From NCBI GenBank assembly GCA_963682025.1, contig OY821518.1:124520800-124584799 (forward strand): a stretch of DNA of 64,000 bases, in the 5' to 3' direction. The notes beneath the pieces are model-generated. The model saw only the letters and a program-made list of their open reading frames with translations, made no database searches and had not been told where the DNA came from. Shown in pieces: positions 15,474-60,325 of this stretch (its first letter is position 1; every line of letters begins with the position of its first letter). A program made the position numbers and the translations under genes. Source of the stretch: Cordilura impudica (lineage: Eukaryota > Arthropoda > Insecta > Diptera > Scathophagidae).

Positions 15474-16278
15474 TTATACCCTATACCATTATGTGGTTTG
15501 GGTATAATGACTTTGTGCTGCTGTTTGTAACAACCAAAAATATTTGACCTACACCCATCTTTAATTATACCGATCGAATCAGAATCACTATCTGATTCGA
15601 TTTAACGATGTCCGTCAGTCCGTCCGTCCGTCCGTCTGTGTGTCCATGTAAAGCTTGTAATCAAACTGCAGGTCGCAAATATGAATATATTTTGATTAAA
15701 TTTGGTATTTGATCTGTTATCGGCCATAGGATGAACGCTATTGAAACTGGTGAGAATCGGTCCATGCTCAGACCTAGCCCCCATACAAATGACCCCTATG
15801 AAATCAACATATATTGCCATAAGATCCAAATTATCATACAAATCTTAGTCAAACTAGGTTTGTATATATATATTACATCCATTAATCAGTAGTCCGAAAA
15901 TTATCCCTATTGGATAACTCTTAGTCATAGGCCCCATATAGAGCTGCTTTCCGATCTTCACTTAAATCTATCAAAAAACAAAAGTATTGCACTGATTCAT
16001 CTCAAATTTTGTTTGTATATATTTTCGCAAAATACAAGAGACTTTACCAACCATGGTCAGGATCGGCCCATTTTTGGACCTAGTCCCCATATAGACATAG
16101 CACCCCATATGGACTTTTTCATATCTGCAGCCAAAAAAATTTATAAAAATGCCACTCAAATTTGGTTTATGATTATTTTCTATATCCAATTAGTTGGGCC
16201 TAAGAGATAGGGTCTCTAAATGCATGGTATAGGGTATCGTATAGTCGGTCTAGACCGACTATAATTTTCTTACTTGTT
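15474..16278 (+). mobile_element. mini-me-like repeat, copy 3
   Basis: A full-length copy from TTATACCCTATACCATTATG to TCTTACTTGTTTT, with the (GTCC)n tract at about 15611-15640 and the terminal palindrome at 16244-16261. Confidence 0.8.
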
Positions 16279-16289
16279 TTTACATTCAA

Positions 16290-17128
16290 TTTTTTAGGCG
16301 GTTGTTTGTATGGTTTAAAGAAAAGCTTAAAAAATAAACGCATATTAAAATTTTGTGAATTTACTAACGGTGTAACATTATCTGCCAAATTAAACGATGT
16401 TTGTTTTCATTTTATTCCAAGCTACCTTAATTGCAATAATTGGCCTATGATTTTGAGAAATTTACACATCTTGCAAATTGTTTGAACACTCAACCATTTT
16501 GAATTATTGGAGATTTAAAGGCGAGAGTTTCTTCTGCATAAACGCTGGATGATGATATTTTGTTTAATTTACCTTTAGTTGCCAACTCACGAAGGTCTGA
16601 GGATACTACAATTGATGGGGAAGGGAGAAAACTATTATCGTTCCTAGAGAATGCGAATGGTATTATAGTTAATGGTGGTATTATAGTTAATGCTCTGCAA
16701 CTCTTTTCCGACTTTCAAATCCCACGTAAGCCTTTTTCTGATCACATGTCGCTAGTCGTTTCATTATGCGCAGAGCTTAAAAATCTTTCTAGAAAATTAG
16801 CACTTCCTGCCAAGCTTCCTTGGTTCGCAAACAGAATTGTTAAGTATGCAAATGCTCTTGAAAACCTCGCTGACCTTAGTTACGTACAATCAATTTTACC
16901 CATTCAAGAAAAAGTTAATATATGTACTCAGAAAACTCGTAATGCTAATGGTGGTGAATAACGTTATTCAAAAAATTTGATATTAATATTGTTTCAAACT
17001 ATAGAGCATTATCGCTTCTCGACACTTTATATAAAATCTTTACGGGATTGTTACTGAGTCGCATTAACAGCTGGTTGGACTTTAACGGTATCCTTAATGA
17101 ATACCAAGCTGGGTTCCGCAAAGATTAT
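16290..17128 (+). pseudogene. Element F, endonuclease and start of RT
   Basis: Plus-strand fragments show an AP-endonuclease-like domain: NGVTLSAKLNDVCFHFIPSY, then IIGDLKARVSS (the usual GDxN is GDLK), then NLPLVANSRRSEDTTIDGEG and a FSDHMSLVVSL motif with the catalytic SDH. After a gap, the RT begins with NYRALSLLDTLYKIFTGLLL and FNGILNEYQAGFRKDY. The frame stops at 17128, where element G is inserted, and continues at 21912. It resembles LOA/I-group elements, which I state only as a guess. Several stops and one missing block are visible. Confidence 0.7.
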
Positions 17129-17133
17129 TTATT

Positions 17134-17196
<63 letters not shown>

Positions 17197-17279
17197 TTCG
17201 TATATTGGTCTGTGGAATTAATCCTTACAGACTATTTACAAAGAAAAACTTTTTAAAATTAATTTTAGTGCATAGATAT

Positions 17280-20200
17280 TCATGAATTTAGAAAGCATAT
17301 TATTTTACTTTTAAATAGATTAGTATTTAATGAGAAATCAATAAATCTATAAAGTTCATTAAATTGAATACACATTCTCCTGAGAGGGTCTGCATTTGCA
17401 TAATTAGCTCTATAGAACTGTACAGATAAAGGTGAGAAGTAAAGTGTTGGTCGTTGAGGAATGTTGAATGATATATTGTTAATCAGGAAACCAGAACAAA
17501 CATCGCCGTTAATTATATTAAGTAGAAATGAAACATTTAGCATAGTTCTCCGGCTTTTTAAAGTTGGTAGCTTAATAAGGGCAAGTCTGCTGGTATAGGA
17601 TGGAAGATTACTTGGATTGAAGTTTAAACTCCGAAGACAAAACAAAAGGAATTGTTTCTGCACAGATTCCAGACTGTCGGCATGAATTTGGTAGATTGGG
17701 TCCCAAATTATAGAAGCATATTCCCAGATAGGTCTGACAAGTGACGTATATAAAGTTTTGGTGACATAGGGATCATTAAACACTTTAGCCCAACGTTTTA
17801 TGAAACCAAGTGCACCTCTGGCTTTGTTGACAGTAATTGTTATATGAGGAATAAAGCTCAGTTTATGATCCAATAAAACACCAAGATCTATAAAGTTATC
17901 TACTTTATCGAGACAATAATCACCCAGCACATAGTTGACAGATATCGGCCTCTTTCTGACGAAACGCATATGTTCACACTTTTTAAGGTTTAGCTCCATT
18001 AAATTTAAATTACACCAAGAATAAAATGAATTCAAATCATTTTGGAGAAAAACATTATCAGAGTGTTGATTATAACAGAAGAAAATTTTGACATCATCCG
18101 CATACATCAAGATGTTTGAAAAACGAATAACATTCGGAAGATCGTTTATAAACAAAGAAAAAAGAAGCGGTCCAAGATGGCTGCCTTGTGGTACTCCCGA
18201 CATTACATCTATCGGCTTTGAAGTAACATTTTTAAAACATACTTTTTGTGTTCTATTAGTTAAATAAGAATATATCCACTTTGCGCAAAGTTTTGAAAAT
18301 CCCATCATATGTAATTTCTTAAGAAGAAGCTTATGATTGACTTTATCGAAAGCCTTGCTGAAGTCAGTATAAATTGCATCTGTTTGTTTGCGTTCAAGAA
18401 AACCACGGTTGACAATTGAAATAGATTTGTAGAGGTTGAACATCTTTTTTGGAAACCATGTTGGAAGGGAGAAATTAACGTATTTACTTGATGGCATAGA
18501 TAATCCGTTATAATTTTTTCAAAAATTTTAGGTATAATACTTAACTTAGCAATTCCACGATAATTAGTAATATCAGCCTTGTTACCAGATTTGAATAGCG
18601 GAATAATGAATGAATCTTTCCACACAGTGGGAAAATACCCATATTTAATTGAGGTATTAAACACGAGTGTTAATGGTACAGCTAAAACATCAGCACATTT
18701 TATTAAATTACAGGACGGATTTTATCGGGACCACTGTTGCAGGAAAATTTAAGTTTTTTCAATTCATTAGAAAAAACAGATATAGCAAGAGAAGGAATGG
18801 ATATAATTTGAGTAGCAGTCAGTGAATATGAGCAGATATTAGAATCATCAAAAATTGCATCGGAGTAAGTAGTTGAGAAGAAGTCAGCAAATAAATTGCA
18901 TACAATAGTATCATCACAGGATTCATTATGTAGAAATTTCATAACAGCAGGATAGCCCTTAGTTTTTCTCTTAGAGTTAACAAATTTGTAGAATGACTTC
19001 GGATTTCGTTTAAAATTATTTTTCATTTTGTTCAAATAGTGTAAATAACATGAATTATTCAGAGTATTATATTCGGCACGACAAATGGAGTATTTTCCAT
19101 GATCAACAAGAGATCCAGTTTCCTTATACTTTTTGTAATATTTATTTTTTTTATTCTTGATACTAGCCAGTTTCGTAGTATTCCAAGGCGGTCCAGAAAG
19201 GTTTTTTTTAAGAACACATGACTCACTAAAAGAATACATCTTGTTATAGAAAGCTTCAGTCATTTGATCAATGGCGCGAGTTGTACCAGTAGATAACGAT
19301 AATAAATCATGCCAGTTTGTATTATTTATAAGTTCATTAAACATAGTGTAATTCGTTTGAGCGAAACAAAAAACTTTAACACTTTTTTTAGGTGTGTCTA
19401 CAAGTCCAGATGGAATGGATATATTTACTTCAATAGTAGGGTGATATTCAACTTCAGGAATTGAAATAGGGTTTGATCGCTTCATAAAACATTCAGTAAC
19501 TTCATTAACAAATATTAAATCCAATAATTTTGAATGATCATTAAGAATTCCATTTAATTGAAAAAGATGTAAATAAAAAACAAGTAAGAAAATTATAGTC
19601 GGTCTAGACCGACTATACGATACCCTATACCATGCGTTTAGAGACCCTATCTCTTAGGCCCAACTAACTGGACATAGAAAATAAGCAAAAACCAAATTTG
19701 AGTGGGATTTTTATTAATTTTTTTGGCTGCAGATATGAAAAAGTTCATATCGGATGCTATATCTATATAAGGACTTGGTCCAAAAATGGACCGATCCTGA
19801 TCATGTTTGGTAAAGTCACTTGTATTTTGCAAAAATATATACAAACAAAATTTGAGAAGAATCAGTGCAATATTTTTGTTTTTTAATAGATTTAAGTGAA
19901 GATCGGGAAACAGCTCTATATGGGGTCAAAGGGACCATTTTTGGACTACTCATTAATGGATGTAATGAACGCATACAAACCCAATTTGAGTAAGATCTAT
20001 ATGACAATTTGGATCTTATGGCAATTTATGTCGATTTCATATGGGTAATTTGTATGGGGGCTAGGTCTGAACATGGACCGATTCTCACCAATTTCAATAC
20101 CGTTCATCCCATGGCCGATAAAAGCTTATGTACCAAATTTCATCAAAATACATTCATATTTCCGACCTGCAGTTTGATTACAAGCTTTACATGGACACAC

Positions 20201-23515: not shown

Positions 23516-24717
23516 AATCTAATCTAATCTAATCTAATCTAATCTAATCTAATCTAATCTAATCTAATCTAATCTAATCTAATCTAATCTAATCTAATCT
23601 AATCTAATCTAATCTAATCTAATCTAATCTAATCTAATCTAATCTAATCTAATCTAATCTAATCTAATCTAATCTAATCTAATCTAATCTAATCTAATCT
23701 AATCTAATCTAATCTAATCTAATCTAATCTAATCTAATCTAATCTAATCTAATCTAATCTAATCTAATCTAATCTAATCTAATCTAATCTAATCTAATCT
23801 AATCTAATCTAATCTAATCTAATCTAATCTAATCTAATCTAATCTAATCTAATCTAATCTAATCTAATCTAATCTAATCTAATCTAATCTAATCTAATCT
23901 AATCTAATCTAATCTAATCTAATCTAATCTAATCTAATCTAATCTAATCTAATCTAATCTAATCTAATCTAATCTAATCTAATCTAATCTAATCTAATCT
24001 AATCTAATCTAATCTAATCTAATCTAATCTAATCTAATCTAATCTAATCTAATCTAATCTAATCTAATCTAATCTAATCTAATCTAATCTAATCTAATCT
24101 AATCTAATCTAATCTAATCTAATCTAATCTAATCTAATCTAATCTAATCTAATCTAATCTAATCTAATCTAATCTAATCTAATCTAATCTAATCTAATCT
24201 AATCTAATCTAATCTAATCTAATCTAATCTAATCTAATCTAATCTAATCTAATCTAATCTAATCTAATCTAATCTAATCTAATCTAATCTAATCTAATCT
24301 AATCTAATCTAATCTAATCTAATCTAATCTAATCTAATCTAATCTAATCTAATCTAATCTAATCTAATCTAATCTAATCTAATCTAATCTAATCTAATCT
24401 AATCTAATCTAATCTAATCTAATCTAATCTAATCTAATCTAATCTAATCTAATCTAATCTAATCTAATCTAATCTAATCTAATCTAATCTAATCTAATCT
24501 AATCTAATCTAATCTAATCTAATCTAATCTAATCTAATCTAATCTAATCTAATCTAATCTAATCTAATCTAATCTAATCTAATCTAATCTAATCTAATCT
24601 AATCTAATCTAATCTAATCTAATCTAATCTAATCTAATCTAATCTAATCTAATCTAATCTAATCTAATCTAATCTAATCTAATCTAATCTAATCTAATCT
24701 AATCTAATCTAATCTAA
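23516..24717 (+). repeat. (AATCT)n array, about 240 perfect copies
   Basis: The five-base unit repeats without a visible interruption for about 1.2 kb. It starts exactly at the 3' end of element F (CAATAAATCT) and ends at AATCTAATTAAATTTTT. A short isolated CTAATCTG lies near 24744. It is not the canonical insect telomere repeat TTAGG. Array length in the assembly may be inaccurate. Confidence 0.98.
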
Positions 24718-25184
24718 TTAAATTTTTTTCTTTCAATGTTTTTCTAATCTGTATATATAAAAAATTTATGAACATTTAAACGAATTAGTTATTTATTGTT
24801 CGGCTTGAGATCATGTATACATTTTCTAATGAAAGAAAAGGTAATAGTTTTTGTAATGTAAGAAAAATATTGGAACAAATTGAAGACAGCGCTAGATGGA
24901 GTAGCTATTTTCGAACAAAGCGACTTGTTCATCTTCAGCATCCTTCTGTCTATTACTTCAACTCATGCTTAATCAACTATTTAACTCAACTTTGAAAGAA
25001 AAGAACATAGGGAATGTAAATAAAATTCATTAAATTGAGAATTTTTAAATAAAATTCATTGAGTTTCATTGTAAATATTTGTTGAACACACTAAAGAAAT
25101 ATAAATAGGTTAGTTAATAAAAAATGTTATAAAAGCCTAGAGGTATGCTTTAAATGATTACACGGTGCTACAGTGAAAACATAA
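24718..25184. other. No gene seen
   Basis: An open frame of 60 codons at 24813-24995 (KILEQIEDSARWSSYFRTKR) looks protein-like, but I do not recognise it. The rest is AT-rich. Confidence 0.3.
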
Positions 25185-25451: not shown

Positions 25452-28400
25452 TGGGGGATGGGGTCTTTCTCAGAGGTGCTCTTCGGTGCGGAACGCTCTC
25501 TGTCTGCTATTCACTTGGGAATAGCAAGAAGCAATTCCTCTGTTGGATTTCCCAAGCAGCTCACAACTTCCGGTCTCTGACCAAGTATCCCCTGGAAATG
25601 TCGCCCAGGCACCCATCTGACGGCAGCTAGAGTGAGAAGGCGTGCAGCTATGAGTGACTTGAATGGCATGCGAACACCAGTGCGTCTCAGGTAAGTAGGT
25701 GGTAATCCAGAATGCAGAATACCACTGAAACTCTGCTGTATTTTAACCTGCCTAGAGGTAGTTGGCAGCCCCAACAATAGGATCGGAGTGCAGTGGTCTA
25801 ATCAGTCCTCACTCCTAAATAACTTCGATTACAGAAACGTCAATAAATTCAAATAACAACGGTTTATGATTGGTACTTGGAACGTTAGAACTCTTTCGGG
25901 AATATCTCGAATCGAGAAAGTTCGTAGGAAAATGGCTGCACATAGTTTGGATGTCTTAGGACTTAGCGAGGTACGATGGTTTAGCAATGGTTCCACTTAC
26001 TTACCAAATGGCTTTCATTTCATATACTCGGGTAACGATACGCATAGAAAGAATGGAGTTGGAATACTACTTTCGCCGAAAGCTAGTCGCGCTTTGTTGG
26101 AACATAATGCTATCTCCGATCGCATTATCATTGCGAGAATAAACTCAAAGTTTCGCAAGATTTCGATCATTCAATGCTACGCCCCAACGGAACCCGACGA
26201 CGATAGTGTTAAGGATGTTTTTATGATCAACTAGATGCTGTTGTCAGTAAGATACCTTCTGGCAACAACAATAATAACTTACAGTCAGTCATGGGTATAC
26301 TTGGTCTTGGTATGGTGAGAAACAACAATGGAGAAAGACTGATTGACTTTTGTGCTCGAAACCGATTATTTATCGGTGGTACAAAGTTCCCACATAAGGA
26401 CATACACAAGTATACGTGGGTTTGTCCTGCTGGCCGTACACGTAACCAAATCGATCATGTCCTGATGAGTAAGCTATTTTTGGGATCCTTAATGGATGTA
26501 AAGACCCGACGAAGAGCGGATATCGACAGTGATCACCGATTACTCGTAGCTACGCTTCGTTTGCGACCAGCTGCAATCAAAACTAGGGATAGGCCCGATA
26601 AATACAATACAGCACGGCTCCTTGACCGTAATATTGCACAGTTATACAACAACAACTTAAAGACTGCTTTGCTTATGAACCAACATCAAAACACATGGGC
26701 AGACGTATCGTCAGTTTGCAAAGAAACTGCTAGGTCAGTGCTTGGATTAAAAAGTAGCAAGATTAAGCCGTGGATTAGCGATGAATCTTGGATGGAGATA
26801 CAAAACCGAAAAAACTTCACAAAGATCGCCTAAATGCTAAAACTCACGCACAAAAACAGCAATCTAGATCCCAATATCGGCAGTCTGCACGTCGAGTTCG
26901 TAACTTGGTTCGTTCTGATCGCGAAAAATATTATAACGGCATTGCTGAACAGGCGGAGCAAGCCGCAAATACAGGTAACTTGCGTGGTGTATATTCAGCT
27001 ATTAAAGAGCTAAGTGGAAATAATATAAGAGGCACCGCGATTGTAAAAGCAGTCGATGGATCTGAAATAATAGCACCCGAACAACTTGAGCGATGGCGCG
27101 ATTTCTTTTCACTGCAAGCTTCATCAACTAGTAGCGAGACTCAAGACGATGATCGATTTTTTACAACTCGTCGCAATCCCAGGAGGGACATATCTACAGG
27201 TCCAACGTCATGCTCAGAAATTGAAGATGCGTTAAATAGAATTAAAAACAATAAAGCATCAGATCCAGACAGCATTCCTGCTGAACTTTTGAAATATGGC
27301 GCTGGTACTTTAGATCAGTTACTTACCCCTATTATCCATGAAGCCTGGACATCTAACCACATACCAGATGAATGGAAAGAAGGAACAGTGGTCACACTAG
27401 CCAAGAAAGGAGATTTGACCCAATGTAAAAATTGGCGTGGCATAACTGTTCCTAACGCCATAGGCAAGGTTATGGTCACCCTTATACTGCAAAGAATTTC
27501 TCCTGTTGTGGATCAGATTTTGCGTACTGAGCAGGCAGGATTTAGACAAGGTCGATCCTGTGCTGATCACATCAATACTTTGCGCATAATTATCGAAAAA
27601 TCCGCTGAATATAATACTCCTCTTTATTTACTTTTTGTCGACTTTGAACGGGCATTTGATACTATATCCCGAAACTCCATGTGGTCGGCGCTAACATACA
27701 AAGGAATTCCTGAAAAAATAGTTAACATGATACGTGAACTATATAGGGATGCACAATGTAGGATACGTTTTAATGGAAATGAGAGTCGGCCATTCGTTCC
27801 CACCACTGGTGTGCGACAAGGATGCATCCTCTCTCCAACGTTGTTTTTGCTACTTCTTGAATGCGTAATGGAAAAAACCAACAGAGATGCACCTTTCGGT
27901 ATCTGATGGACTTTATCCGAATTTCTATATGACATAGACTATGCCGATGATATATGTTTAATGGCACATCGTTTTTCGGATATCGAAGCAAAACTTTCCA
28001 GACTATCCGAAAACGCTAAAAAAAAGTTGGTTTAAGTATTAATATAAACAAAACAAAGCTCATGCGCATAGGCACAGATATCGCCACACCGTTAGTTATA
28101 AACGGTCAGACCATTGAAGATGTAGATGCTTTCTGCTACCTTGGTAGCAAGATAACTAAGGACGGTGGGTCAAATGCTGACGTAACCGATCGCATAAATA
28201 AAGCACGAGTGGCTTTCTTTTCCTTAACCAAAATTTGGAGAAGAAATAATATTTCTCGTAAAACAAAAGTACGTATTTTTAACTGTAGTTTAAAGTCTGT
28301 GTTGCTTTATGGCTGCACTACATGGAGCTTAACGCAAGATACCATTAAAAAAAATTCAAACATTTATTAACAAATGTCTGAGACAAATTTTTCACATCCA

Positions 28401-42559: not shown

Positions 42560-43670
42560 TTCCTGAACTTAATCCCAAGATTTTTTAATATTATCAATAA
42601 CATTCATTACATTAAATTGCTTCCAAAATTCTGTAAGAGTTATCTGATTTAGAATATCAACATATTGGATAAGATTCTTGTAAACGCGACGCAAATAATA
42701 AGCCTTAAAATTGGCGATTACACCCCGATCCATTGGTTGAAGTATAGGAGTAGTAGTTGGTGGTAGGGATACGATTTTGATGTTGTCAGGTATATCAGTT
42801 AGCTTATGGCTAGGTGGATTGACAATTATTAGCAATGCCTTATTTAAAATATTTTGTTCGGAATTAAATTGTCACAGAATTTAAAAAAAAAATTATTCGA
42901 CCAGTCTTGTAAAAGATGTGCTATTATCCATCCCTTTTTTACTGGAGCGCCAGATAACCAAGTTTTGATTTGTTGCAACGCTTGAAGGCTCGTGGATTTT
43001 CAAAATGATAAATAAGCATCGGCTTTAAATTATTATCACCCTCAGCATTCCATCCCAACATAACCGTTACACGGTTCTTAACTGTATTAAATCCTGACGC
43101 AGACTTTTCTTGTTTGGAAATGAGTGTTCTAGATGGCATTCTTTCAGAAAATAGACCTGTTTCATTCACATAATATACTTGTTGTGGGGTATACTCACCG
43201 GCTTCAACAACTTCTTTAAATTCTGCAGGATAATTTTTTGCTGCATCAACGTAACGCTTCTTAAATCGATCAAGCCAACCTTTGCTAGCTAAAAACTTTT
43301 CTGCCTGAGATCCTTCGCCATTTTTCATTATTAAAATAATAAATACTGGCTCCTGGTTTTTTCTTGGATAATGCTTGTGCTTATCGCAATATTTCGTTAG
43401 GATTCGTTCCATATCTTCCATCACCACACCTCTATGTTTTGGAACGTTTTTTGCAGTTAAAGATGTTATTCTTTGTACACTACTTCTTATTTAATCTTGA
43501 TTGTTCTTCATTGAAGCAGCGAGGCCTAAATCTTTTCCTATTTCATTATATTTGTCGCCTGCTTCGTTCCTCCAATGTAATCGCTTTACGGATCTTTTTT
43601 GCACCAGTGGCGTGGTACGTACCTCCATTTCGCTTACCAGATATTTTTATAGTAAAATTAATTTTCACTT
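42560..43670 (-). pseudogene. Tigger/pogo transposase relic, catalytic acids lost
   Basis: Minus-strand order: a psq-type helix-turn-helix start (KRNGGTYHATGAKKIRKAIT, about 43640-43570), a CENP-B-type segment (MEDMERILTKYCDKHKHYP, FLASKGWLDRFKKRY), then the DDE_1 core. The first acidic motif reads VYYVNETGLF, where VDET is expected, followed by ISKQEKSASGFNTVKNRVTV and MLGWNAEGD. After a frameshift and a poorly preserved stretch the second motif reads LLIIVNPPSH, where LLxDNxPxH is expected. Then SLPPTTTPILQPMDRGVIAN and FKAYYLRRVYKNLI follow. Two catalytic aspartates are therefore replaced by Asn and Val. The role would have been cut-and-paste transposition at TA sites. Confidence 0.8.
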
Positions 43671-45690: not shown

Positions 45691-46156
45691 CTTTAATAAG
45701 TCAAGAAATAGTTTTAAAAAATTTCCCACAATAGTTTTCCAAATATAAATTATATAAACATGAATCAAATAAAAAATGATTTCTTAAAATTTTAATTAAT
45801 ATTTCAGTCCACCATAATCATCAATGAAACCGATAAAACGTGAAGGTATAAAAAAATACATGTTAATACATTTCCATGAACATACTGCATGATATTGCTT
45901 ATATGCAATGTTACGTAACTCCTACAATACAAACAGGAAGTCAACCAAATTTAATTTCTGCAATCATAATGTGCATGCAACGTACGGTTAAATGTATTTG
46001 TAAATCTACTAGTTCATTTCTTGAATAGATAAAAATGAATAATTAAAATAATCATTATGCATTATTATTCTTATAAAAAAATTAAAGTGCATCCATTCAT
46101 TTAAAAAATCGTAAACATAAAAGACATATGTTATGTTTATGTTAGTATATAATATA

Positions 46157-46594
46157 CTAGATGTAACCCGGTGTGCTTCGCTACACCCTCCCCCTTCCCA
46201 GCTACGAATCGATATGAGAGTGCTCACGCAAAGTCCCAAGGCTCTCACTAATACAGTAATTCAGATATATCACATTTAATATTAAGTTTGTGTAGGGGTG
46301 CCATGCGCATTTGTCCAATCCCGCCCATTTTTTTTTTGTCCGACTACTCACGTTAATAATAGATGACCTGAGACAAATTTGCAAAGCTTCCTCTATCATA
46401 TTAATATATATGATATTTAAAATTTACTTTGTATGGGAGGTGCCACGCCCGCCAGCCTGTAGCACTCCCATATCCGCAGTAAGACTTTGTGGCAATTTCA
46501 GGAAGGTCAGATGAGTAGTTATGGAGATTACCTCCTACAACCAAACGAACACATATTACCTCCTTACTATGTTAGCATAGATTATTAGCATAGA
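46157..46594 (-). mobile_element. Helitron family C, copy C1
   Basis: In reverse orientation it begins TCTATGCTAATAATCTATGC, contains the (GTTT)n block and GGAGGTAATCTCC, one ~150-bp unit, and ends in the hairpin and CTAG. It is the mirror partner of C4. Confidence 0.8.
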
Positions 46595-46596
46595 TT

Positions 46597-46735
46597 TTTA
46601 TACCCTATACCACTATGTGGTTTGGATATAATGACTTTGTGCTGCTGTTTGTAACTACCAAAAATATTTGACCTAGACCCATCTTTTAACGATGTCCGTC
46701 CGTCCGTCTGTGTGTCCATGTAAAGCTCGTCTTAT
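46597..46735 (+). mobile_element. mini-me-like fragment in the left arm
   Basis: Only the first ~140 bp of the family, from TTTATACCCTATACC to CATGTAAAGCTCG. It has no partner in the right arm, so it entered after the palindrome formed or was lost there. Confidence 0.8.
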
Positions 46736-46744
46736 TTGAATACT

Positions 46745-46865
46745 TGCTGATATACAATATTTTTTTTCATTCGGTACAACAATTATCAGATTTTTCGGCG
46801 TTCCTACCCTGGAGCAAGGTACATGTAGCTGCCCATGAGAAGAAGATGGGTTATCAAAATTAGAT
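46745..46865 (-). pseudogene. Helitron helicase C-terminal fragment (left arm)
   Basis: The minus strand reads SSSHGQLHVPCSRVGTPKNL and IIVVPNEK, with a frameshift near the end. It mirrors the fragment at 52299-52415. Confidence 0.7.
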
Positions 46866-47085
46866 CTGGCAACACTTAACTACTGACCTTGAACTTAGAA
46901 TATCATTTGGCAATTTTTCTTTTTAGCGATTTTTGATTTTGCCCATTTTTGATTTTGAAGATATTTTGTTCGATTTTTATTTTTCGCAATTTTCGGTTTT
47001 GGCGAATTTTTGATTTTGGCGATATATTTTCCACGACAAATCACATTGATAACTAATGTACTTAACAAAAGACTATTGCTTTCGT

Positions 47086-48719
47086 AGTACTATACTAATA
47101 TTATAAAGAGGTAATGTGTGTTTGTTTGTTTGTTTGTTTGTAGGAGGTAATCTCCGTAACTACTCATCCGATCTTCCTGAAATTTTCACAAAGTCTTACT
47201 GCGGATATGGGAAGTGCTATTAGCTATAATTTTTTAAACATTTTCAGTGGGCGTGGCACCTCCCACACAAAGTAAATTTTTAATATCATATACATATATT
47301 GAGTATTATGATAGGGAGAGCTTTGCAAATTTGTGTGAAGTCACCTATTGTTAATATTAGTAGCTACGCCTGAAATGGGCGGGATCGGATAAGTGGGCGT
47401 GGTAGCTCCCATACAAGTAATAATTCAATATTATATATCTCGAGTACTGTGATAGAGAGAGCTTTACAAATTTGTTTAATGTCACCTGTTATTAATGTGA
47501 GTAGTCGGACATAAAATTGGCAGTATCGGACCAATAGGCGTGGCACTTACCATACAAATTAAATATAAAATGCCATATATCTGAAGTACTGTTGTATTGA
47601 GAGTTTTGGGACTTTGTGTTATTTATACAGGAGGTGTCACGCCCACTAATCCCATCCCACCCAATTTTTATTGGACTACTCACATTAATATCTGATGGAC
47701 TCATGCAAAATGTCGAGTCTTTCCCTTTTGTAGTACACCAGTTATATGATATTAGATATTTACTTTGCATGGGCGGAGCTGCACCCACTGCTTCGATCAA
47801 GCCCATTTTTTTGTTCGACTAATCATACAAAGAACTTATGGGCTCACGCAAAGCCACAAAGCTCTCTCTTTTAAAGTACTCCAGATATATGACATTAAAT
47901 AGTTACTTTGCATGGGGAGTGCCACGCCCATTGGTGTGAACCCGCCAATTTTTTGTCCGACTACACATACTAAGATCTGATGGTGTCGTGCAAAGTTTCA
48001 AAGCTTCTCTTTTTTAGTACACCAGTTATATCATATCATATATTTACTTTGTACGGGCGATGCCACGCCCACTGCTCCTATCACGCCCTTTTTTTGTCCA
48101 ACTAATCGCATGCATAACTTATGGGCTCACACAAAGTCCCAAGACTCTCACTATAACAGTACTCCAGATATATGGCATTTTATATTTAATTTGTATGGTA
48201 GGTGCCACGCCTATTGGTCCGATACTGCCCATTTTTTGTCCGACTACTCACATTAATAATAGGTGACACCAGACAAATTTGAAAAGCTCCCCGTTTTTTG
48301 TCCGACTACTCACATTAATAATAGGTGACACCAGACAAATTTGAAAAGCTCTCTCTATCACACTACTCGAGATATATAATATTGAATAATTACTTGTATG
48401 GGAGGTACCACGCCCAGTTCTCCGATCCCGCCCATTTTCGGCGTAACTACTAATATTAACAATAGGTGACCTCACACAAATTTGCAAAGCTCTCCGTATC
48501 ATAATAGTGAATATATGTATATGATATTAAAAATTTACTTTGTGTGGGAGGTGCCACGCCCACTAAAAATATTAAAAAAGTTATAGCCTGTAGCACTTCC
48601 CATATCCGCAGTAAGACTCTGTGAAAATTTCAGGAAGATCAGATGGGTAGTTACGGAGTTTACCTCCTACAAACAAACAAACAAACACACATTACCTCTT
48701 TATCTATACTTATTAGAGT
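47086..48719. mobile_element. Helitron family C repeats, C2 (head-to-head halves)
   Basis: It starts TATACTAATATTATAAAGAGG with (GTTT)n in plus orientation and ends with the same 5' terminus in minus orientation (CCTCTTTATCTATACTTATT). The two halves (about 47086-47620 and 48160-48719) are inverted copies of each other. About ten ~150-bp units with GGGCGTGG and CGCCCAT motifs lie inside, including a 63-bp exact local duplication near 48286-48350. No protein is encoded. Confidence 0.7.
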
Positions 48720-49278
48720 TCGTTTGGCGACCAGGTCACCTGATTTGTTTTTCGGGTATCAACATTTTTTTTAAGGTTTTTGGGTAAATAAAAATAATGG
48801 CGGTCTTTTTTTTTAAAAATTTTTACTCCTTGGGGTGGTTCAACCCACCTAAAAACGCGGATTTTGAGCTCATTTTCTGCAGTGCAAAAACGGTTAAATA
48901 TATTGCAAATCTGATTTCACCAGTCAATTCTGCAGCAAAAATTAATACAATGTATGTTTTTTGAACCCCTAAAAAAGTTCCAAAAACCCACAACAGAGGG
49001 CGCAAATCTCATTAAAAAAGAAAAAATTTTTTTTTTGATTTTTTTAAACATGCACGATGAAAAGGCATTTTAAGCTTAGTGAACCGGTACCAACATTTTA
49101 TTTTTATCAGAACCCGTAAAAAAGTTATATGGCTTTAAACATTTTTTGTTAAGGCTAAGTAACTTGTTAGAAAAAAGTTAAGACTGTTGAAAAAAATTTT
49201 GCAGAGTTTCCTGTCATTTAAAATTTTTAAAAAATTAAATCTTAAACATTTGTTTGCAATTGATAATACTTTATCAAT

Positions 49279-50292
49279 ATGTCGGATCTGTTACATTTAG
49301 CAAATAAAAATCACCGAAGGGCGGATCACAGAGAAGTGGCCGAACTTGCACTTGTTTATTTAAATGCGAATCCTGGCTATAATTTAAAAGCCTGCGGGGC
49401 AGATCACCACGCCCGATGGCTCTCAAAAGTAATATATATTTTCAAAATAATGTTGTACAAAAATCATTTTTACATTTCGGAAACGTTGTTATAGCAATTT
49501 GAAGCTATGCTTCTCTATTTTATAACCGTATACCTAAAGTATTTGTTCACAATTTATGTTACAAAAAATTACCTAGACTTTTTGTCCGAACTTGAGAAAT
49601 TTTCGCAGATGGAAGGAAAATATTGTTCTTTAATTGCAAACAGTGCTAAAGTCACTCAGCTACGGCATTTGGAATACCTAAGCGAAGATAGCGCAGTATT
49701 TTCAATTTTTGACGAACGAATTTCATTAGAGGAAAAGGAAAAACTACGAAAAAAATTGTTACCAATTAAAATCAAAGATCAAATTCAAAAGTTGTTAGAA
49801 ATTGATCCAAATTGTTATTTACACGATTTCAAAGACTATGATGCCGTTACATATTGTACACCGGATGAAGAAGCTGAAGATTTTGTTAACTTGATCCATT
49901 CAACCGATCAAATACTTTATGAAAAAGATTTCGTTGATGTCGATGAAAATGAAAATGTATTAAACAAAACTATCGATGTAACTAGCAAATTACCAAATTA
50001 TGATTCTTTTTGTTCTAAATCGCCTTTTGATTACGTCACTCTTCAGAGCATAAAAAGTTTACCTAATTTTGGTATAAATATTTCTTTTATGGGTCATAAA
50101 GCCATTGATTGGCCAACTAACAAAAGCTATGTAAATGCAATCAAAATCGCCAATAACATTAAATCTACAAGCATTTATATGGAACAACTAGTTGGCCGAA
50201 TTTCAAGACTAAACGATTCGTGTTTGCTGAAAAATAAAGATTTTTTAAATCGTTTAGCTATAGCCGAAGTAGATAACACTGAAATTGTTTAA
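49279..50292 (+). pseudogene. Element D protein, one in-frame stop
   Basis: About 337 codons in one frame, with a single TAG at 49492-49494. The N-terminal part has LKACGADHHARWLSKVIYIF and KIMLYKNHFYIS. The second part has VYLKYLFTIYVTKNYLDFLS, LRHLEYLSEDSAVFSIFDER and a lysine/glutamate-rich helix. The C-terminal half reads SPFDYVTLQSIKSLPNFGIN and CLLKNKDFLNRLAIAEVDNT. The HHARWLSKxIYxxKI, then LxYLSExxxxFSxFD order occurs, as far as I recall, in the C-terminal half of uncharacterised arthropod and cnidarian transposon proteins. No catalytic triad can be assigned. The strong codon continuity suggests a young or recently active element. Confidence 0.55.
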
Positions 50293-50690
50293 AATTACTT
50301 TAAATGAATCATTTGAAACAATAAAAAAATTTGTAAACTTTTTTTACCAATTATTTTTTTTTTTTGTTATAAAATAATTTTGAAGTCTCATAACTTTTTA
50401 ACGGGTTGTGATAAAAATAAATTGTTGGTACCGTTTCGCTAAGCTTAAAATGCCTTTTCATCGTGCATGTTTAAAAAACTTAATTTTTTTTTTTTTTGTT
50501 TAAAATTACTTTAAATGAATCATTTGAAACAATAAAAAAATTTGTAAACTTTTTTTACCAATTATTTTTTTTTTTTGTTATAAAATAATTTTGAAGTCTC
50601 ATAACTTTTTAACGGGTTGTGATAAAAATAAATTGTTGGTACCGTTTCGCTAAGCTTAAAATGCCTTTTCATCGTGCATGTTTAAAAAAC
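50285..50690 (+). repeat. Tandem duplication, two ~204-bp units
   Basis: TGTTTAAAATTACTTTAAAT at about 50287 recurs at about 50489, and the two units are nearly identical up to AAAAAACTTAATTTTTT. The first unit includes the stop codon of the element D frame. Confidence 0.9.
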
Positions 50691-51002
50691 TTAATTTTTT
50701 TTTTTTTTTTTTTTTTATGAGATTTGCGCCCTCTGTTGTGGGTTTTTGGAACTTTTTAAGGGTTCAAAAAACATAAATTGTATTAATTTTTGCTGCAGAA
50801 TCGACTGGTGAAATCAGATTTGCAATATATTTAACCGTTTTTGCTCTGCAGAAAAACGAGCTCAAAATCCGCGTTTTTAGGTGGGTTGAACCACCCCAAG
50901 GAGTGAAAATTTTCAAAAAAAAAGACCGCCATTATTTTTATTTACCCAAAAACCTTAAAAAAAATTTTGATATCCGCAAATCAAATTTTTAAAATATACT
51001 CT

Positions 51003-52050
51003 AATACTTATATTAATATAATAAAGACGTAATGTGTGTTTGTTTGTTTGTTTGTTTGTAGGAGGTAATCTCCGTAACTACCCATCTGATCTTCCTCAAA
51101 TTTTCACAGACTCTTACTGTGGATATGGGAAGTGCTATAGGCTATAATTTTTTAAATATTTTTGGTGGGCGTGGCACCTCCTACACAAAGTAAATTTTTA
51201 ATATCATATACATATATTGAGTATTATGATAGGGAGAGCTTTGCAAATTTGTGTAAGGTCACCTATTGTTAATATTAGTAGCTACGCCGGAAATGGGCGG
51301 GATCGGATAAGTGGGCGTGGTACCTTCCATACAAGCAATAGTTCAATATTATATATCTCGAGTAGTGTGATAGAAAGAGCTTTTCAAATTTTTCTGATGT
51401 CAACTATTATTAATGTGAGTAGTCGGATGCAAAATGGGCAGTATCGGAAAAATAGGCGTGGCACCTGCAATACAAAGTAAATATAAAAATGTCATATATT
51501 TGGAGTACTTTAATAGTGAGAGTCTTGGGACTTTGTGTGAGCCCATATGTAATTCATTTGATTAGTTAGACAAAAAATGGGCGTGACCGAAGCAGTGGGC
51601 GTGGCACCGCCCATACAAAGTAAATATATGATATCATATAACTGGTGTGCTAAAAAGAAAGCTTTGACACTTTGCACGAGCCTATCAGATCTTAGTATGA
51701 GTTGTCGAATAAAAAATTGGCGGGTACACACCAATGGGCGCGGCACTTCCTATGAAAAGTAACTACTTAATGTCATATACCTGGAGTACTGTAAAAGAGA
51801 GAGCTTTGTGGCTTTGCGTGAGCCCATAGGTTCTTTGTGTGATTAGTCGAACACAAAAATGGGCGTGGTCGGAGCAGTGGGAGTAGCACCGTCCATGTAA
51901 AGTAGATATCTAATATCATATAACTGGTGTACTATAAAAGGGAAAGACCCGACATTTTGCATGAGTCCATCAGATATTAATGTGAGTAGTCCAATAAAAA
52001 CTGGGCGCGATGGGATTAGTGGGCGTGGCACCTCCTATGTAAGAAATATA
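51003..52050 (+). mobile_element. Helitron family C repeats, C3
   Basis: It begins TAATATAATAAAGACG with (GTTT)n and continues with seven ~150-bp units. It is the mirror partner of the right half of C2. It ends at GTAAGAAATATAAAGCACTACG, where the helicase-side sequence begins. Confidence 0.75.
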
Positions 52051-52298
52051 AAGCACTACGAAAGCGACAGTCTTTTGAAAAGTTCATTAGTTATCAATGT
52101 GATTTGTCGTGGAAAATATATCGCCAAAATCAAAAATCGCCAAACCCAAAAATCGCGAAAAATTAAAATCGCCCAAAAAACAAAAATCTTCAAAAACAAA
52201 AATGGGCAAAATCAAAAATCGCTATAAAGAAAAATTGCCAAATGATATTCTAAGTTCAAGGCCAATAATTAAGTGTTGCCAGATCTAATATGGATAAT

Positions 52299-52415
52299 CC
52301 ATCTTCTTCTCATGGGCAGCTACATGTACCTTGCTCCAGGGTAGGAACGCCGAAAAATCTAATAATTGTTGTACGGAATGAAAAAACAAAAAACATTGTA
52401 TATCAGCATCAGTAA
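52299..52415 (+). pseudogene. Helitron helicase C-terminal fragment (right arm)
   Basis: The plus strand reads PSSSHGQLHVPCSRVGTPKN, then LIIVVRNEKTKNIVYQHQ and a stop TAA at 52413-52415. This matches the typical end of the Helitron PIF1-like helicase (HGQLYVACSRVG..., TKNVVY). Only the last ~38 residues survive. It ties the surrounding repeats to Helitrons directly and lies about 17 bp upstream of C4. Confidence 0.8.
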
Positions 52416-52432
52416 GCATTGAAATAAAAAAA

Positions 52433-52887
52433 TCTATACTAATAATCTATACTTACATAATAGAGATGTAATATTTGTTTGTTTGTTTGTAGGATGTAAT
52501 CTCCGTAAAAACTCATCTGATCTTGCTGAAATTTTCACATAGTCTTACTGCGGATATGGGAGTGCTACAGGCTTTAATTTTTTTAATATGTTTAGTGGGC
52601 GTGGCACCTCCCATACAAAGTAAATTTTTAATGTCATATATATTAAGTACTATGATAGAGAAAGTTTGTCTCAGGTCATCTATTATTAACGTGAGTATTT
52701 AGACAAAAAAATGGGCGGGATTAGACAAATGCGCGTGGTACCCCCACACAAACTTAATATTAAATGTGATATATCTTAATTACTGTATTACTGAGAGCTT
52801 TGGGACTTTGCGTGAGCCCTTTCATAACGATTCGGAAGGGGGGGGGGGAGGGGGAGGGTGTAGCGAAGCACACCGGGTTACAGCTAG
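52433..52887 (+). mobile_element. Helitron family C, copy C4
   Basis: It begins TCTATACTAATAATCTATAC, contains (GTTT)n, GTAGGATGTAATCTCCG and one or two ~150-bp units, and ends with the hairpin GGTGTAGCGAAGCACACC, nine bases, CTAG followed by T. This is a complete short Helitron layout (TC...CTAG). Confidence 0.85.
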
Positions 52888-53721
52888 TAATATTATATTA
52901 GTATAGATAGTATAGAAAAATAAATAAAATAAACAGTTTGACTTTTTTTAAAAATTATGAATTTATATATTGTTAATTTAAAAAAAAAAGCTGACCCATA
53001 ACAACCAAGTTTTAATTACATTCCCTTTCTTTTAACATCATGTAATTAAATAATTGATTGATTGAAAATGAAACATGGCTAGAAGAGTATTTAAGTATGT
53101 CAAAAATCTCAAAAATATCTCTTTACCTCCATTAGAATTTTCTTCTTGTTACACAATAAGTTAAAGGAAAGGGAGTAAAAATTGTACTCATGGGGCATAA
53201 ATTGTTAGTTGATTTAGGCTCTCAAAAAACACTTTATCCTTAATGTTTCGCTGTTCAAACCTGATATATATCTTGTATCAAATTAAACAGCTACAGAAAA
53301 AGCTCAAGTGAATAGTTGATATATACTTTTTAAATTTTATTTTTTTAATATTTTCCTTTAAATGTTCTGTAATTACTTTCTTAAAATTTATATTAACAAT
53401 ATCAACTGAATCCATGATATCATTGAGAACTGGAAAAGATTAATATTTTGGAGTACTTGCTTGAATACGGCTTTTCCATAACAAAATTTTCCTCATAAAA
53501 GCTCCTTTGAATCAAAAGTAATCAAAATCTTTATTTGTTTTTCTTGCAATTTCAACTTAATGTTGTTTTGTAATTCAAAAATCGGTTATCTAAGCAAAAT
53601 AGAAAAGAAAGTAATCGTCCGTAAATTTTTTGTAAAGATTATCATTTCCTTCACTCAGAATAAAAATTTCAACCTCTGTTTCTAGCTCATACAGCATATT
53701 TCCTTTTGAAAGCCACCGACC
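52888..53721. other. No gene seen
   Basis: AT-rich sequence, possibly unique genomic DNA. It ends with the left target-site copy CGACC (53717-53721). Confidence 0.4.
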
Positions 53722-53759
53722 CACAGTGGCGCCATTTGAGTTATTTCGTTGCAAAAATC
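53722..53759 (+). other. Transib left terminal signal (heptamer-22-nonamer-like)
   Basis: CACAGTG at 53722-53728, a 22-bp spacer, GCAAAAATC at 53751-53759. The heptamer is identical to the consensus V(D)J recombination signal heptamer, and the nonamer-like block resembles ACAAAAACC in its A-run. Confidence 0.85.
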
Positions 53760-54040
53760 ATATCTTTTGAATCAAATAACATAATTGAACGGTTTAAACA
53801 GCATATGATAGATAACTGTTCAGCCTATGAAATGAGCATTTGGAAAGGGTACTACGCTTTGTAGGGGCCTACTTATAGGTTATCAAAGTTAAAATTTGTA
53901 GAAAAATCAATTTTATGGTAGCTAAAAAAAATTATTTTTACATTTTTAGATTGTTTTTATTTTTTTCCTTTAGGGTTTTATGTTTTAAATTATTACCCAA
54001 CAAATTAAAAAAAAATTACTTCTTTTTTAAATTTATTTTT

Positions 54041-56055
54041 TCAATTTTCTGTAAAATATTCATCACAATTCGTAAGAGAAGGTATATCTAAAAGACTAAT
54101 CATTTCTAAACTATAATTATTTTCTAACTGTATTCGTGACTTCATATGCCGCAGGAAAGAAATAAGTGGATCGGAAGATGCTGCCAACATGTTGAAGAGG
54201 TCCTCATTTTGCCTTACCCTTGATGCTTTGAATGTGTTGCAATCTATATTTTTTATAAAATTTGTTAAGAGACTCCTGTGCTTCTTCAGAAAGCTCTCCT
54301 CTGGCAAACACTGGTACTCAATTATACCTTTGCCATGCGCCAATATTTTATGGACGGTCGGGGACAATTTCTTCTGTGGATACATTTCTGCTAAAAGAGA
54401 TGCAGTTTTCGATGCATATTCTCCATATTTTGTAGAATTGACATTTTATTTGCAGTTTAAAACATTCAAGATCGTTCCCAATCTTTTCACGATTTGATTG
54501 TCAATTCCAGTGATTCTAGTTACTGCCTCATCATTTTCAAAAAATCTCCTAGAAGTGTTTCCATCGTTTAAGTTACCGTATCCGTGCTTGGGACAGTCTA
54601 CTTTTAGTCCAACTTGTTTAAAAAAAGCATCCTGTATTTGCTTCTTTCTGATCTTTTCCTTATCCTTTATTGATGTATTTTCGTCGAAGTTTTCCTCATC
54701 ATGTGGTAGGGTATACGCCAGTTTTAGCCAGAACTTCATACACCTTATCCTTGCGTGCAATGGTGACATTCCATATTCGTAATTCTCCTTGTTTGTAGAA
54801 TCGTTTAAATTACCAATGTTCTTCTGACTCTTTTTGCAAATTGGGCATGACAATATTGAGGTTGTTCCTGTCAGTTCGTTTACGACTTTTCTATCAACCA
54901 TGGTCAGGTGGAACTCGTAATTGCATTCAATATATTTTTCTTCTCCAATTTGCAACTTTGTAAGCTTAATCTTGCTTATTTGTTCTTCAATGTCCTTCAC
55001 CGTAGTCCTTATAAGTTCTGCCGATTCCCTTGCAAACTGAAACATTATTGGTCGGCAATAATACACTGATGATGGACGTGGATTTTTCCAGTGTAGGAAA
55101 CATCAGATTTTACCCGCAAAAGAACAACAGATGCCATAAACATATTTCCATATAAACGCTTGTCCGGATGATCCATCGCAGCCCCATTTGCTGATCAATA
55201 TCAGTTTCTCAGGAAGAATTTTGACCTCATTTTCAGGAAGACTCTCCAACAACCGTTTTGCTGTATGGCCCATGAGATCCTGCAGATTGAATTTATTTTG
55301 GCTTGCGTAATATGCTTGTATCCTGGTAAAACGTCAGCCTCGTGTCGCATCAAGGATGCCCGTAGTATCTCATATTTTCCTTTGGAAAGTTGTAAGTCCA
55401 CAAACAAGGCCAAGGCTTCTTCGGAACCATACTTTTTAATGTGTGTGTTTGTGGGCGTGGGAGTGCTTTCCTTAATCCTTTTTAGTCACAGTGGGCTTGA
55501 ATCATCAACAGATTTTGTAATCTTCGACCTAACTCTTTCACTATCCTTTGTATATTTAATAGACAGCGCGTCCGATAAATGCTTCGTGGTCAAGACATTG
55601 GTGACATCGGTAATTTTACTCTTTCTTGTGAGAATTGAACACTCCTCAATACTTTTTTTTGGCCTTCCTTTTGCTCCTCTGGTTGATGTGGTGGGTTTAT
55701 CTACTGCCAATATATCCAGGATGGTGTCCTCATTAAGCCAGTCCTCGTATTTGGAGTTGAAGTTCTGAATGGTTCGATTAGATTTCACCCATTTTGCCTT
55801 AATATTTGCATATATCAGATAAAAATTATTTTTTATTATTTCGCTTCTCTCAATATTTCCGTATAAGCTATCAAGTTCTTCTAAAGCAGCTTCCGTGAAA
55901 AACTTTGGTGTGGTTGACCTTCTAAACAGTTCAAATAATTTTAAATTGTTCAACGCCATGTTTTCAGTACTTAAATTGTTTAACGCCATGGTTTCAGTAC
56001 TTGTTGCGCCAACTTTCAGTCGTAGACTAATCCAGGCATTATGCTTATTTTGCAA
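54041..56055 (-). pseudogene. Transib (RAG1-like) transposase, three stops and one frameshift
   Basis: It spans about 671 codons, the normal family size. The N-terminal region (56055-55490) is charged and has GRPKKSIEECS. Then come SEEALALFVDLQLSKGKYEI, a frameshift near 55290, LQDLMGHTAKRLLESL, and ILISKWGCDGSSGQ, which I take as the first catalytic Asp motif. WKNPRPSSVYYCRPIMFQFA follows, then LTMVDRKVVNELTGT (second Asp) with CPIC, and SPLHARIRCMKFWLKLAY. After that come HGYGNLNDGNTSRRFFEND, TVHKILAHGKGIIEYQ with the candidate third acid in LPEES, and SSDPLISFLRHM. In-frame stops are at 55486, 55103 and 54446. A block between the first Asp motif and NPRPSS is shorter than I remember for the family. 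A 27-bp direct duplication near the start repeats MALNNL. Confidence 0.85.
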
Positions 56056-56922
56056 TATATAAGCTTATGCTACCATGCCTAAAAATTTACCTGTTCCCTG
56101 CATACATATGGATTTAGGCTGAATTAAATCAATTTTGATATTATGCTCGTGTCTAAATAAGATTTGTGCCTACCTGGAGGGACCATAAGTCAATATTGTT
56201 CTTGACCATTTGTACTCCAAAGTAATTTTTAAGTGAGGTGCGTACCTGCGAATTTCAATGAGTAGTTTTTTGTGCATCCAGTGTCTGTAACAGAATATTG
56301 GGAGTGGACTTTGGCAGAGGCTCACAGGTAGACAACCGACTTAAAATGCAATTTTCAAACTATTAGATCAAACTACTGTCAGTCAAAACATGTAAGGGAT
56401 GCACGCCATACAATTTCTGCAACCATGTCGTTTAACCTTTTTTACCTCTAGAAGCCAAACGGGCACGTGCGGGCAGACAAAACCTTTTGAATTATGTAAA
56501 GAAATAATCAAAGAACATGTTTTGCAAATATGGCAAATATAGAAAAATATAGATTTTTTTTATTTTCCGTCAAAATTGAAAAATATTGAAAAAACGGTTA
56601 GTTTTTAAATAGTGATTTACCAGGAGAAACACAAAGCAAACAGGTAATTTTTTTATCATTATACATTTAATAAATACATCAATCAATACAAACAAAAAAT
56701 AAGGCGATTCGTTACCTATTTTTCGTGACATTACACCTGAAATCGCAACAAATTTACTAAAAATTGTGTGTTTTTTTGAAAACCGAAAGTCGGTCAACTT
56801 TGAACGGTTATATCTTCTAAACTAAAAAGGTGATATTATTAAGAGTAGCATATTTGAAATCGTTGAAAAGTTTTCTATAACATGGGTTTATTCAAAACTT
56901 CGTCGGCGCACATGAAAATTTT

Positions 56923-56961
56923 GATTTTTGCAACCTCGTTTGCTCTACGGGCGCCACTGTG
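56923..56961 (-). other. Transib right terminal signal (heptamer-23-nonamer-like)
   Basis: Read on the minus strand: CACAGTG at 56961-56955, a 23-bp spacer, GCAAAAATC at 56931-56923. It is the inverted partner of the left signal. Confidence 0.85.
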
Positions 56962-56966
56962 TGACC

Positions 56967-59088: not shown

Positions 59089-60325
59089 AAGGGTCCGCCA
59101 TCTAACGCTTTTTTTCAACTAGAGCTTATTTCGTGAATGGTAACACTTAGCTCATGTCTGATTTGGCAGATAATTAGTTTTATCCTTTCGCTGAACGAAT
59201 ATGGTTGTGTATATGCTTGAACAATGCTAGGAAATATTGCGACATTACTCAAAATCATGGTAATGTTGCAGAATGTGTGCGAAAATTGCGTACGGATTTG
59301 GAAGAAGAGAAGCACCGTCAGCTCCGTTTGTTCGTTATCTTGTGAAAAAAGTGAAAGAAACTGGCATCCTCATCGATAAACCAAAGCGTGATAAGCCAAA
59401 AACAGTGCGTACACCCGAGAATATTGCTGCTGCTGCTGAATATTGCTGCTGTGGCAGAAAGTGTCCGTGAAACGCCATCAACATCAATTCACCGTCGTTC
59501 TCAAGAATTGAACATTTCGGAGGCATCATTGAGACGAATTTTGCATAAAGACCTTGGTATGACGCCATACAAAGTCCAAGTGGTTCAGGAGTTGAAGCTT
59601 ACTGACCATCCAATGCATTTTCGCTTCGCTAAGTGGGCCTGCGATCGACTTACAGAAGATGCCGATTTTGCCAAAAAAAAAAAATTATCATTTCACATGA
59701 AGCTCATTTTGAACTTGGCAGGCATGTAAACAAGCAAAATTGTCACATTTGGGGCACAGAAAACCCGCACGCATACATTGAAAAGCCGATACACCCAAAA
59801 CGAGTCACTGTTTAGTGCGGATTTTGGTCCAGAGGCATAATTGGGCCATTTGTCTTCGAAAATTAGCAAGGAGTGGCCGTTACAGTCAATGGCGATCGTT
59901 ATCGGGCCATGTTGAACAAATTTTTGTTCACAAAAATTGAAGAGGAGGATATTGGCAACATTTGGTTTCAACAGGACGGCGCTACGTGCCACATTTTTTT
60001 GAAGATCGCATTATCAGCCGCAGAGCTGATGTCGTTTGGCCACCTCGGAGCTGCGATTTGACACCGCTGGACTAGTATTTGTGGGGTGTCCTCTAAAGAT
60101 AAGTGTGAAATACAGCTGCACATAATCGATAATGGGCTTAAAACTTGGACCGATTGTGTAGGCTGGTGCATGGCCAGCCGTGGCAGCCATTTGAATGAAA
60201 TTATTTTCCATTATTAACCGGAAGAATTGTACTTTCAAATAAAAAAAGAAATTTGAGACAATATTCAGTTTTTTTTTTTTATAGCATCTTCAAAAAAAAA
60301 AAAAAAAGTTATTTGGCGGACCCTT
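59089..60325 (+). mobile_element. mariner element 1 (1237 bp)
   Basis: The inverted ends are AAGGGTCCGCCA and TGGCGGACCCTT. They are flanked by TG at the left and TA at the right, so one side of the TA duplication has changed. Length is typical of mariner. The transposase relic is at 59150-60230. Confidence 0.85.
59150..60230 (+). pseudogene. mariner transposase relic, first Asp replaced
   Basis: Frames in order: KCDITQNHGNVAECVRKL-like helix-turn-helix region, KETGILIDKPKRDKPKTVRT, VRETPSTSIHRRSQELNISE, SLRRILHKDLGMTPYKVQVV, then ISHEAHFELGRHVNKQNCHI, where the catalytic Asp of the DEAHF motif is His. IWGTENPHAYIEKPIHPKRV follows, then TVNGDRYRAMLNKFLF and IWFQQDGATCH (second Asp intact). 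A deletion follows, then EDRIISRRADVVWPPRSCDL and TPLD (third Asp intact). A duplicated (AATATTGCTGCTG) segment at 59420-59450, a run of ten A and several frameshifts break the frame. Confidence 0.8.

Follow-up and report, generated by a model that had tools for sequence, protein, structure and literature searches.

The element at 53722-56961 and its ends

The window analysed here is a 64,000-nucleotide (64-kb) stretch of the genome of the fly Cordilura impudica (C2:124520800-124584799), and its positions 53722-56961 hold a 3,240-bp element that is almost certainly a mutated, non-autonomous full-length copy of a very abundant family of Transib DNA transposons in this animal genome. The boundaries of the copy are exact, with CACAGTG at 53722-53728 on the plus strand and at 56955-56961 on the minus strand, and CACAGTGGCGCC in inverted orientation opens and closes the element. 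The locus carries the following features:

53717-53721, no strand: 5-bp flank CGACC, left half of an imperfect target site duplication
53722-53759, plus strand: left terminal signal (CACAGTG, 22-bp spacer, GCAAAAATC), with the same layout in 17 of 18 left ends of 20 other copies
54041-55959, minus strand: broken Transib transposase gene, recognised by HzTransib matches, lesion alignment and homologues
56923-56961, minus strand: right terminal signal (CACAGTG, 23-bp spacer, GCAAAAATC), with the same layout in 16 of 18 right ends of 20 other copies
56962-56966, no strand: 5-bp flank TGACC, right half of the imperfect target site duplication

Comparing the two ends from the outside inwards, we found 12 bp in common, then a dissimilar middle of 14 and 15 bp in which similarity is no higher than in shuffled sequence (p 0.26), and then GTTGCAAAAATCA, which is again common to both. 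These are the two bipartite ends of the family, with CACAGTGGCGCC outside and TTGCAAAAATC inside, and the distance from the heptamer to a nonamer-like block is 22 bp on the left and 23 bp on the right. Read as a recombination signal sequence (RSS), each end thus consists of the heptamer, a spacer and GCAAAAATC; this last block has seven of the nine bases of the RSS nonamer ACAAAAACC in the consensus given in PMC8289069. An earlier note on this DNA had placed CACAGTG at both termini with spacers of 22 and 23 bp, and its coordinates are exact; the GC-rich flanks that it listed, CGACC and TGACC, are likewise in place and are identical at four of five positions, GC-rich 5-bp duplications being usual in the family.

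The transposase gene and its decay

The gene between the two signals runs on the minus strand from a start codon region at about 55959-55989 to the end of the frame at 54041, and its product matches HzTransib, the homologous transposase of Helicoverpa zea (Hztransib; PDB 6PQN and 6PQX), at E 9.4e-31. The motifs WGCDGSSGQ and MVDRKVV, which the earlier note had assigned to a minus-strand protein, both lie in minus-strand frames, and the three acidic catalytic residues are recognisable in WGCDG, MVD and NEDL. The statement that both inner acidic motifs are still present is literally true and extends to the NEDL residue, but the glycine after the second aspartate, conserved at 90% or more in profile A2, is replaced by arginine (MVDGK to MVDRK), and a gap of 13 residues follows closely on the first catalytic motif. 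In a frameshift-aware alignment against the relatives P0001 and P0002, the gene shows five frameshifts, one in-frame stop at 55488 and another at 54448; codons are lacking for 32 residues, which include these 13 and a further 15 upstream of the first catalytic motif. Alignment against the 450 residues of P0007 gave one stop and three frameshifts. Judged by these lesions, the window copy as it stands cannot encode a whole transposase. A 30-bp tandem duplication at 55941-56002, at the start of the gene, is also found in the open frame of copy L011 and is therefore a feature of the family and not damage to the window copy.

A profile of 21 relatives of the transposase resembles HzTransib far more than it does RAG1L or RAG1, and the structure model of one relative, P0004, has the fold of HzTransib, with no separate match in the fold search for the part of the model ahead of about residue 120. 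Upstream of the catalytic core, GRP is found in 76 of 94 relatives of at least 600 residues and also in the window piece, and a profile of this region gave no match to RAG1 chains at E 10 or better. In the passages of PMC9435367 that deal with this region, an NBD equivalent with GRP occurs in both Transib subgroups, and Subgroup II is described by its CTT2 tail, with alpha11-alpha12 lost. In protein-only comparison, P0007 (450 aa, from an ENA source) is 90% identical to the transposase over its first 224 residues and, to judge by this likeness, probably comes from the same family as the window copy; the best named match, P0012 of Eurosta solidaginis, gave 53% over 69% of the query, and both proteins are shorter than the full-length relatives. 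No encoded relative turned up in IMG/VR (P0001 and profile A2) or in GTDB contigs (profile A2), and neither collection contained the end pattern.

Sister copies, family size and age

The genome searched comprises 1,486,481,460 bases in 855 contigs. Of 3,311 first-look candidates, 40 were scored in our copy search, which listed 41 matches other than the window's own; the 20 best-scoring of these served as sister copies; they were picked by similarity of the body and not of the ends, a choice that favours long, window-like copies. The earlier note had proposed such a collection, and the boundaries of the window copy proved to be true boundaries common to other copies. Among the 18 left ends that could be located, 16 carry an exact CACAGTG, one reads CACGGTG and one has lost the heptamer, and in 17 the nonamer-like block lies 22 bp from the heptamer. 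Right ends were also located in 18 of the 20 copies and all have an exact CACAGTG, including that of L027, where register-bound scoring read GGCGCCC and CACAGTG lies further out; their spacer is 23 bp in 16, the exceptions being one broken nonamer-like block and one insertion. Insertions of the family duplicate 5 bp, often CGACG or CGTCG: the flanks of the 16 sister copies with both ends are identical in 12, differ by one mismatch in two and do not match in two, and six of the 12 perfect duplications have one of these 5-mers, from which the remaining six are off by one base (five) or two (one). The same two 5-mers flank 12 of 30 loci found by the end pattern, and together they account for 23 of the 60,692 5-mers counted in the window beyond the limits of the element. 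Hztransib, an element of 3,518 bp, also has a 5-bp duplication, GCTCG (in the part of PMC1852546 cited here).

Transposase homology, boundaries, ends and duplications are established in sequence. Of the characters of the Transib superfamily, a DDE transposase homologous to HzTransib and terminal inverted repeats with a CAC heptamer are found in the window copy itself, and the GC-rich 5-bp duplication is found at the level of the family, with four of five bases in the window copy. An uninterrupted transposase frame (677 codons) occurs in one of the 21 copies examined. Positions 1004-1473 of locus L025 hold a short copy, about 470 bp long, that has the two ends of the family with spacers of 23 and 22 bp and is likely a non-autonomous miniature derivative.

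Genome-wide, the pattern of CACAGTGGCGCC, 8-20 bases and TTGCAAAAATC gave 2,283 + 2,273 = 4,556 matches, and the reversed control pattern gave none. When we left the first six bases free and fixed the spacer at 22 or 23 bp, the count was 2,540 + 2,520 = 5,060 ends, again with 0 for the control, so that CACAGT is kept in at most about nine in ten ends (4,556/5,060), an upper bound for the exact motif as the first pattern also admitted other spacings. Half of 5,060 would put the family at about 2,500 element-equivalents, a figure that solo ends inflate and mutated ends deflate. Spacers and pairs were counted in the first 100 of the 4,556 matches, all on contig C1, where 53 ends have a 22-bp and 47 a 23-bp spacer. 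These ends form 27 inward-facing neighbour pairs less than 7 kb apart; 26 combine a 22-bp with a 23-bp spacer, one is 22/22, and in 15 of the 27 the ends lie 3.14-3.31 kb apart, near full length.

The heptamer alone is not rare, as the 64-kb window contains eight CACAGTG against 2.96 expected, a number reached by 2 of 100 shuffles. As a control we counted 12-mers that start with CAC and occur as inverted pairs at a distance of 1-6 kb, with or without a second shared block, and obtained 37 pairs in the unmasked window, 30 of them with a second block. Inverted repeats as such are common in the window, because 31 of the 37 pairs start in a repeat-rich inverted structure at 46500-52500. After masking of this interval six pairs were left, and the three with a second block are the Transib copy and two nested pairs of one inverted repeat at 15959-19898; in 200 first-order Markov simulations there were 0.345 pairs on average, never with a second block. 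The reality of the bipartite end is settled by the genome-wide count, 4,556 against 0 for the reversed pattern.

Sixteen of the 21 copies entered the divergence alignment, with L010, L013, L017 and L022 (end missing) and L016 (large insertion) left out; its 15 sister copies come from the 20 best-scoring matches and are a non-random sample. The window copy is the most diverged of the 16, at 2.35% from the majority versus 0.91-1.84% for the others, and the element body shows 588 substitutions in 45,945 positions (1.28%). In this non-random sample, the distances suggest that the family expanded recently and that the window copy is among its older members. The six differences in the right heptamer are those of L027, in which an insertion mis-set the register, and five of six in the left heptamer come from the lost heptamer of L028.

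Rival readings, known systems and neighbouring repeats

Several observations weigh against the reading as a decayed copy of a Transib family or fit it poorly. The N-terminal piece of the transposase had no HzTransib match and the piece after it matched only at E 0.14, and a Pfam search of the five window pieces and four relatives named no Transib domain; full-length relatives do cover both of the N-terminal pieces that HzTransib misses or barely matches. Two of the 16 sister copies with both ends have non-matching flanks, and the duplication of the window copy is imperfect, its 5-mers deviating from the family's preference for CGACG or CGTCG as target. Outside the heptamer, the right end has one substitution in 528 positions versus eight in 512 at the left end across the 16 aligned copies, and for this low variability of the last ~40 bp relative to the body and the left end we offer no explanation.

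The earlier note took the window copy for a recent arrival whose ends are unusually clean; that it is such a copy and still competent is very improbable. The terminal 12-mer and the GCAAAAATC block are undamaged at either end, and the family as a whole looks young given the divergence of the 15 other copies, but the window copy does not look recent because it is the most diverged of those aligned, its gene is interrupted by two stops and five frameshifts and lacks some segments, and its flanks mismatch at one base; clean ends, moreover, are usual across the family and not peculiar to this copy. There is scarcely any chance that the element is a RAG-like transposon with paired RAG1L and RAG2L, as in ProtoRAG or TransibSU, whose second gene has been lost. 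Such a transposon would have the heptamer type, the 5-bp duplications and the catalytic fold in common with the window copy, but the transposase profile resembles HzTransib far more than RAG1L or RAG1, and the largest other open frame of the copy (198 aa, antisense to the transposase) is too small for a RAG2-like protein. By the open frames of that copy, a single-gene layout without a RAG2-like gene holds.

Unlikely, if less so than either of these, is the idea that the end with the 22-bp spacer and the one with the 23-bp spacer differ in function and that each must pair with the other kind, which would make them an invertebrate counterpart of the 12/23 rule. The 26 pairs of 22/23 among 27 agree with it, as do, among the matches listed, five ends of the right type whose spacer sequence has changed strongly, all of which keep 23 bp where 15-27 bp were allowed. 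However, a single founder with one 22-bp and one 23-bp end gives the same pattern by descent alone, one 22/22 pair is present, and a difference of 1 bp is far below that of 12/23. We consider it just as doubtful that this is a possibly still active Transib whose thousands of ends form functionally distinct 22/23 signals paired one of each; if true, such signals would represent a naturally occurring, precursor-like stage, in an invertebrate, of telling ends apart by their spacers.

On the preferred reading, a decayed copy of an abundant Transib family, transposition can be pictured from HzTransib and RAG. The transposase would pair the two ends and nick 5' of each CACAGTG heptamer, hairpins would be left on the flanking DNA, and the excised element would insert with a 5-bp staggered cut; an NBD-like domain might further bind the A-rich block. 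HzTransib makes a flanking-DNA hairpin and a blunt signal-end break, like RAG (in the passages of PMC6941560 cited here). The window copy would be mobile only with transposase from another copy.

Vertebrate V(D)J signals share with the ends described here the exact heptamer CACAGTG, the nonamer-like block (7/9) and a 23-bp spacer at one end, but with spacers of 22 and 23 bp, no 12-bp signal and no RAG2 the ends are not 12/23 signals; RAG1 has a homologous catalytic core, and the transposase is far closer to HzTransib. In the passages of the cited papers that describe Transib ends, Hztransib-like ends resemble the RSS heptamer with little or no nonamer similarity (PMC8289069), unlike the 7/9 block at both ends here, and Transibs of Drosophila melanogaster and Anopheles gambiae combine an RSS-like heptamer with a nonamer-like block as here (PMC8355894). 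The latter source gives symmetric 20-22-bp spacers for some Transibs and 12/23 +/- 1 bp for others, compared with the 22/23 pair of the present family, and states that some end motifs are identical to the canonical RSS, as PMC6941560 does briefly; symmetric and asymmetric ends are also described in PMC9435367. Because RSS-like Transib ends with such spacers appear in these three papers, clean RSS-like ends are not new, and the usefulness that the earlier note saw in the window copy for the origin of the 23-type signal adds little to PMC8355894. RSS-like Transib ends count among the main evidence for a transposon origin of antibody-gene recombination, and about 5,000 of them provide enough natural variants to gauge tolerated end positions, spacer lengths and the preferred target. 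Taken by itself the window copy is unremarkable; what merits a specialist's attention is the copy number. Autonomous Transibs are reported to occur singly or in a few copies at most within a genome (PMC4411706), and Transib miniature inverted-repeat transposable elements to cover 0.19 Mb in 98 insect genomes (PMC5199201), against about 5,000 ends here, so that family size is the unusual feature against the cited literature. We found no description of the present family in open-licence papers, which were not searched by species.

The window is otherwise rich in repeats, with no second Transib fragment found in it by tblastn with P0001, P0004 and P0007 or by blastn with the element. About 0.8 kb from the Transib copy ends a large foldback-like inverted-repeat structure (about 46147-52898), with arms 82-92% complementary and tandem units of about 141-143 bp; it includes a 265-aa open frame without Pfam match (49495-50292) and a 211-bp tandem duplication (50285-50712). 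A stretch at 59355-60300 resembles a decayed mariner-type transposase by eye, its open frame at 59355-59729 having no Pfam match, and a Tc5/pogo-type transposase piece (Pfam HTH_Tnp_Tc5 and DDE_1) lies at 42939-43490. RVT_1 reverse transcriptase frames of elements of the type without long terminal repeats (non-LTR) were found at 7723-8715, 17280-18518 and 26785-27906, and the inverted repeat at 15959-19898, with two shared blocks, covers most of a reverse-transcriptase-type element. Finally, 23516-24718 consists of about 240 perfect copies of the pentamer AATCT.
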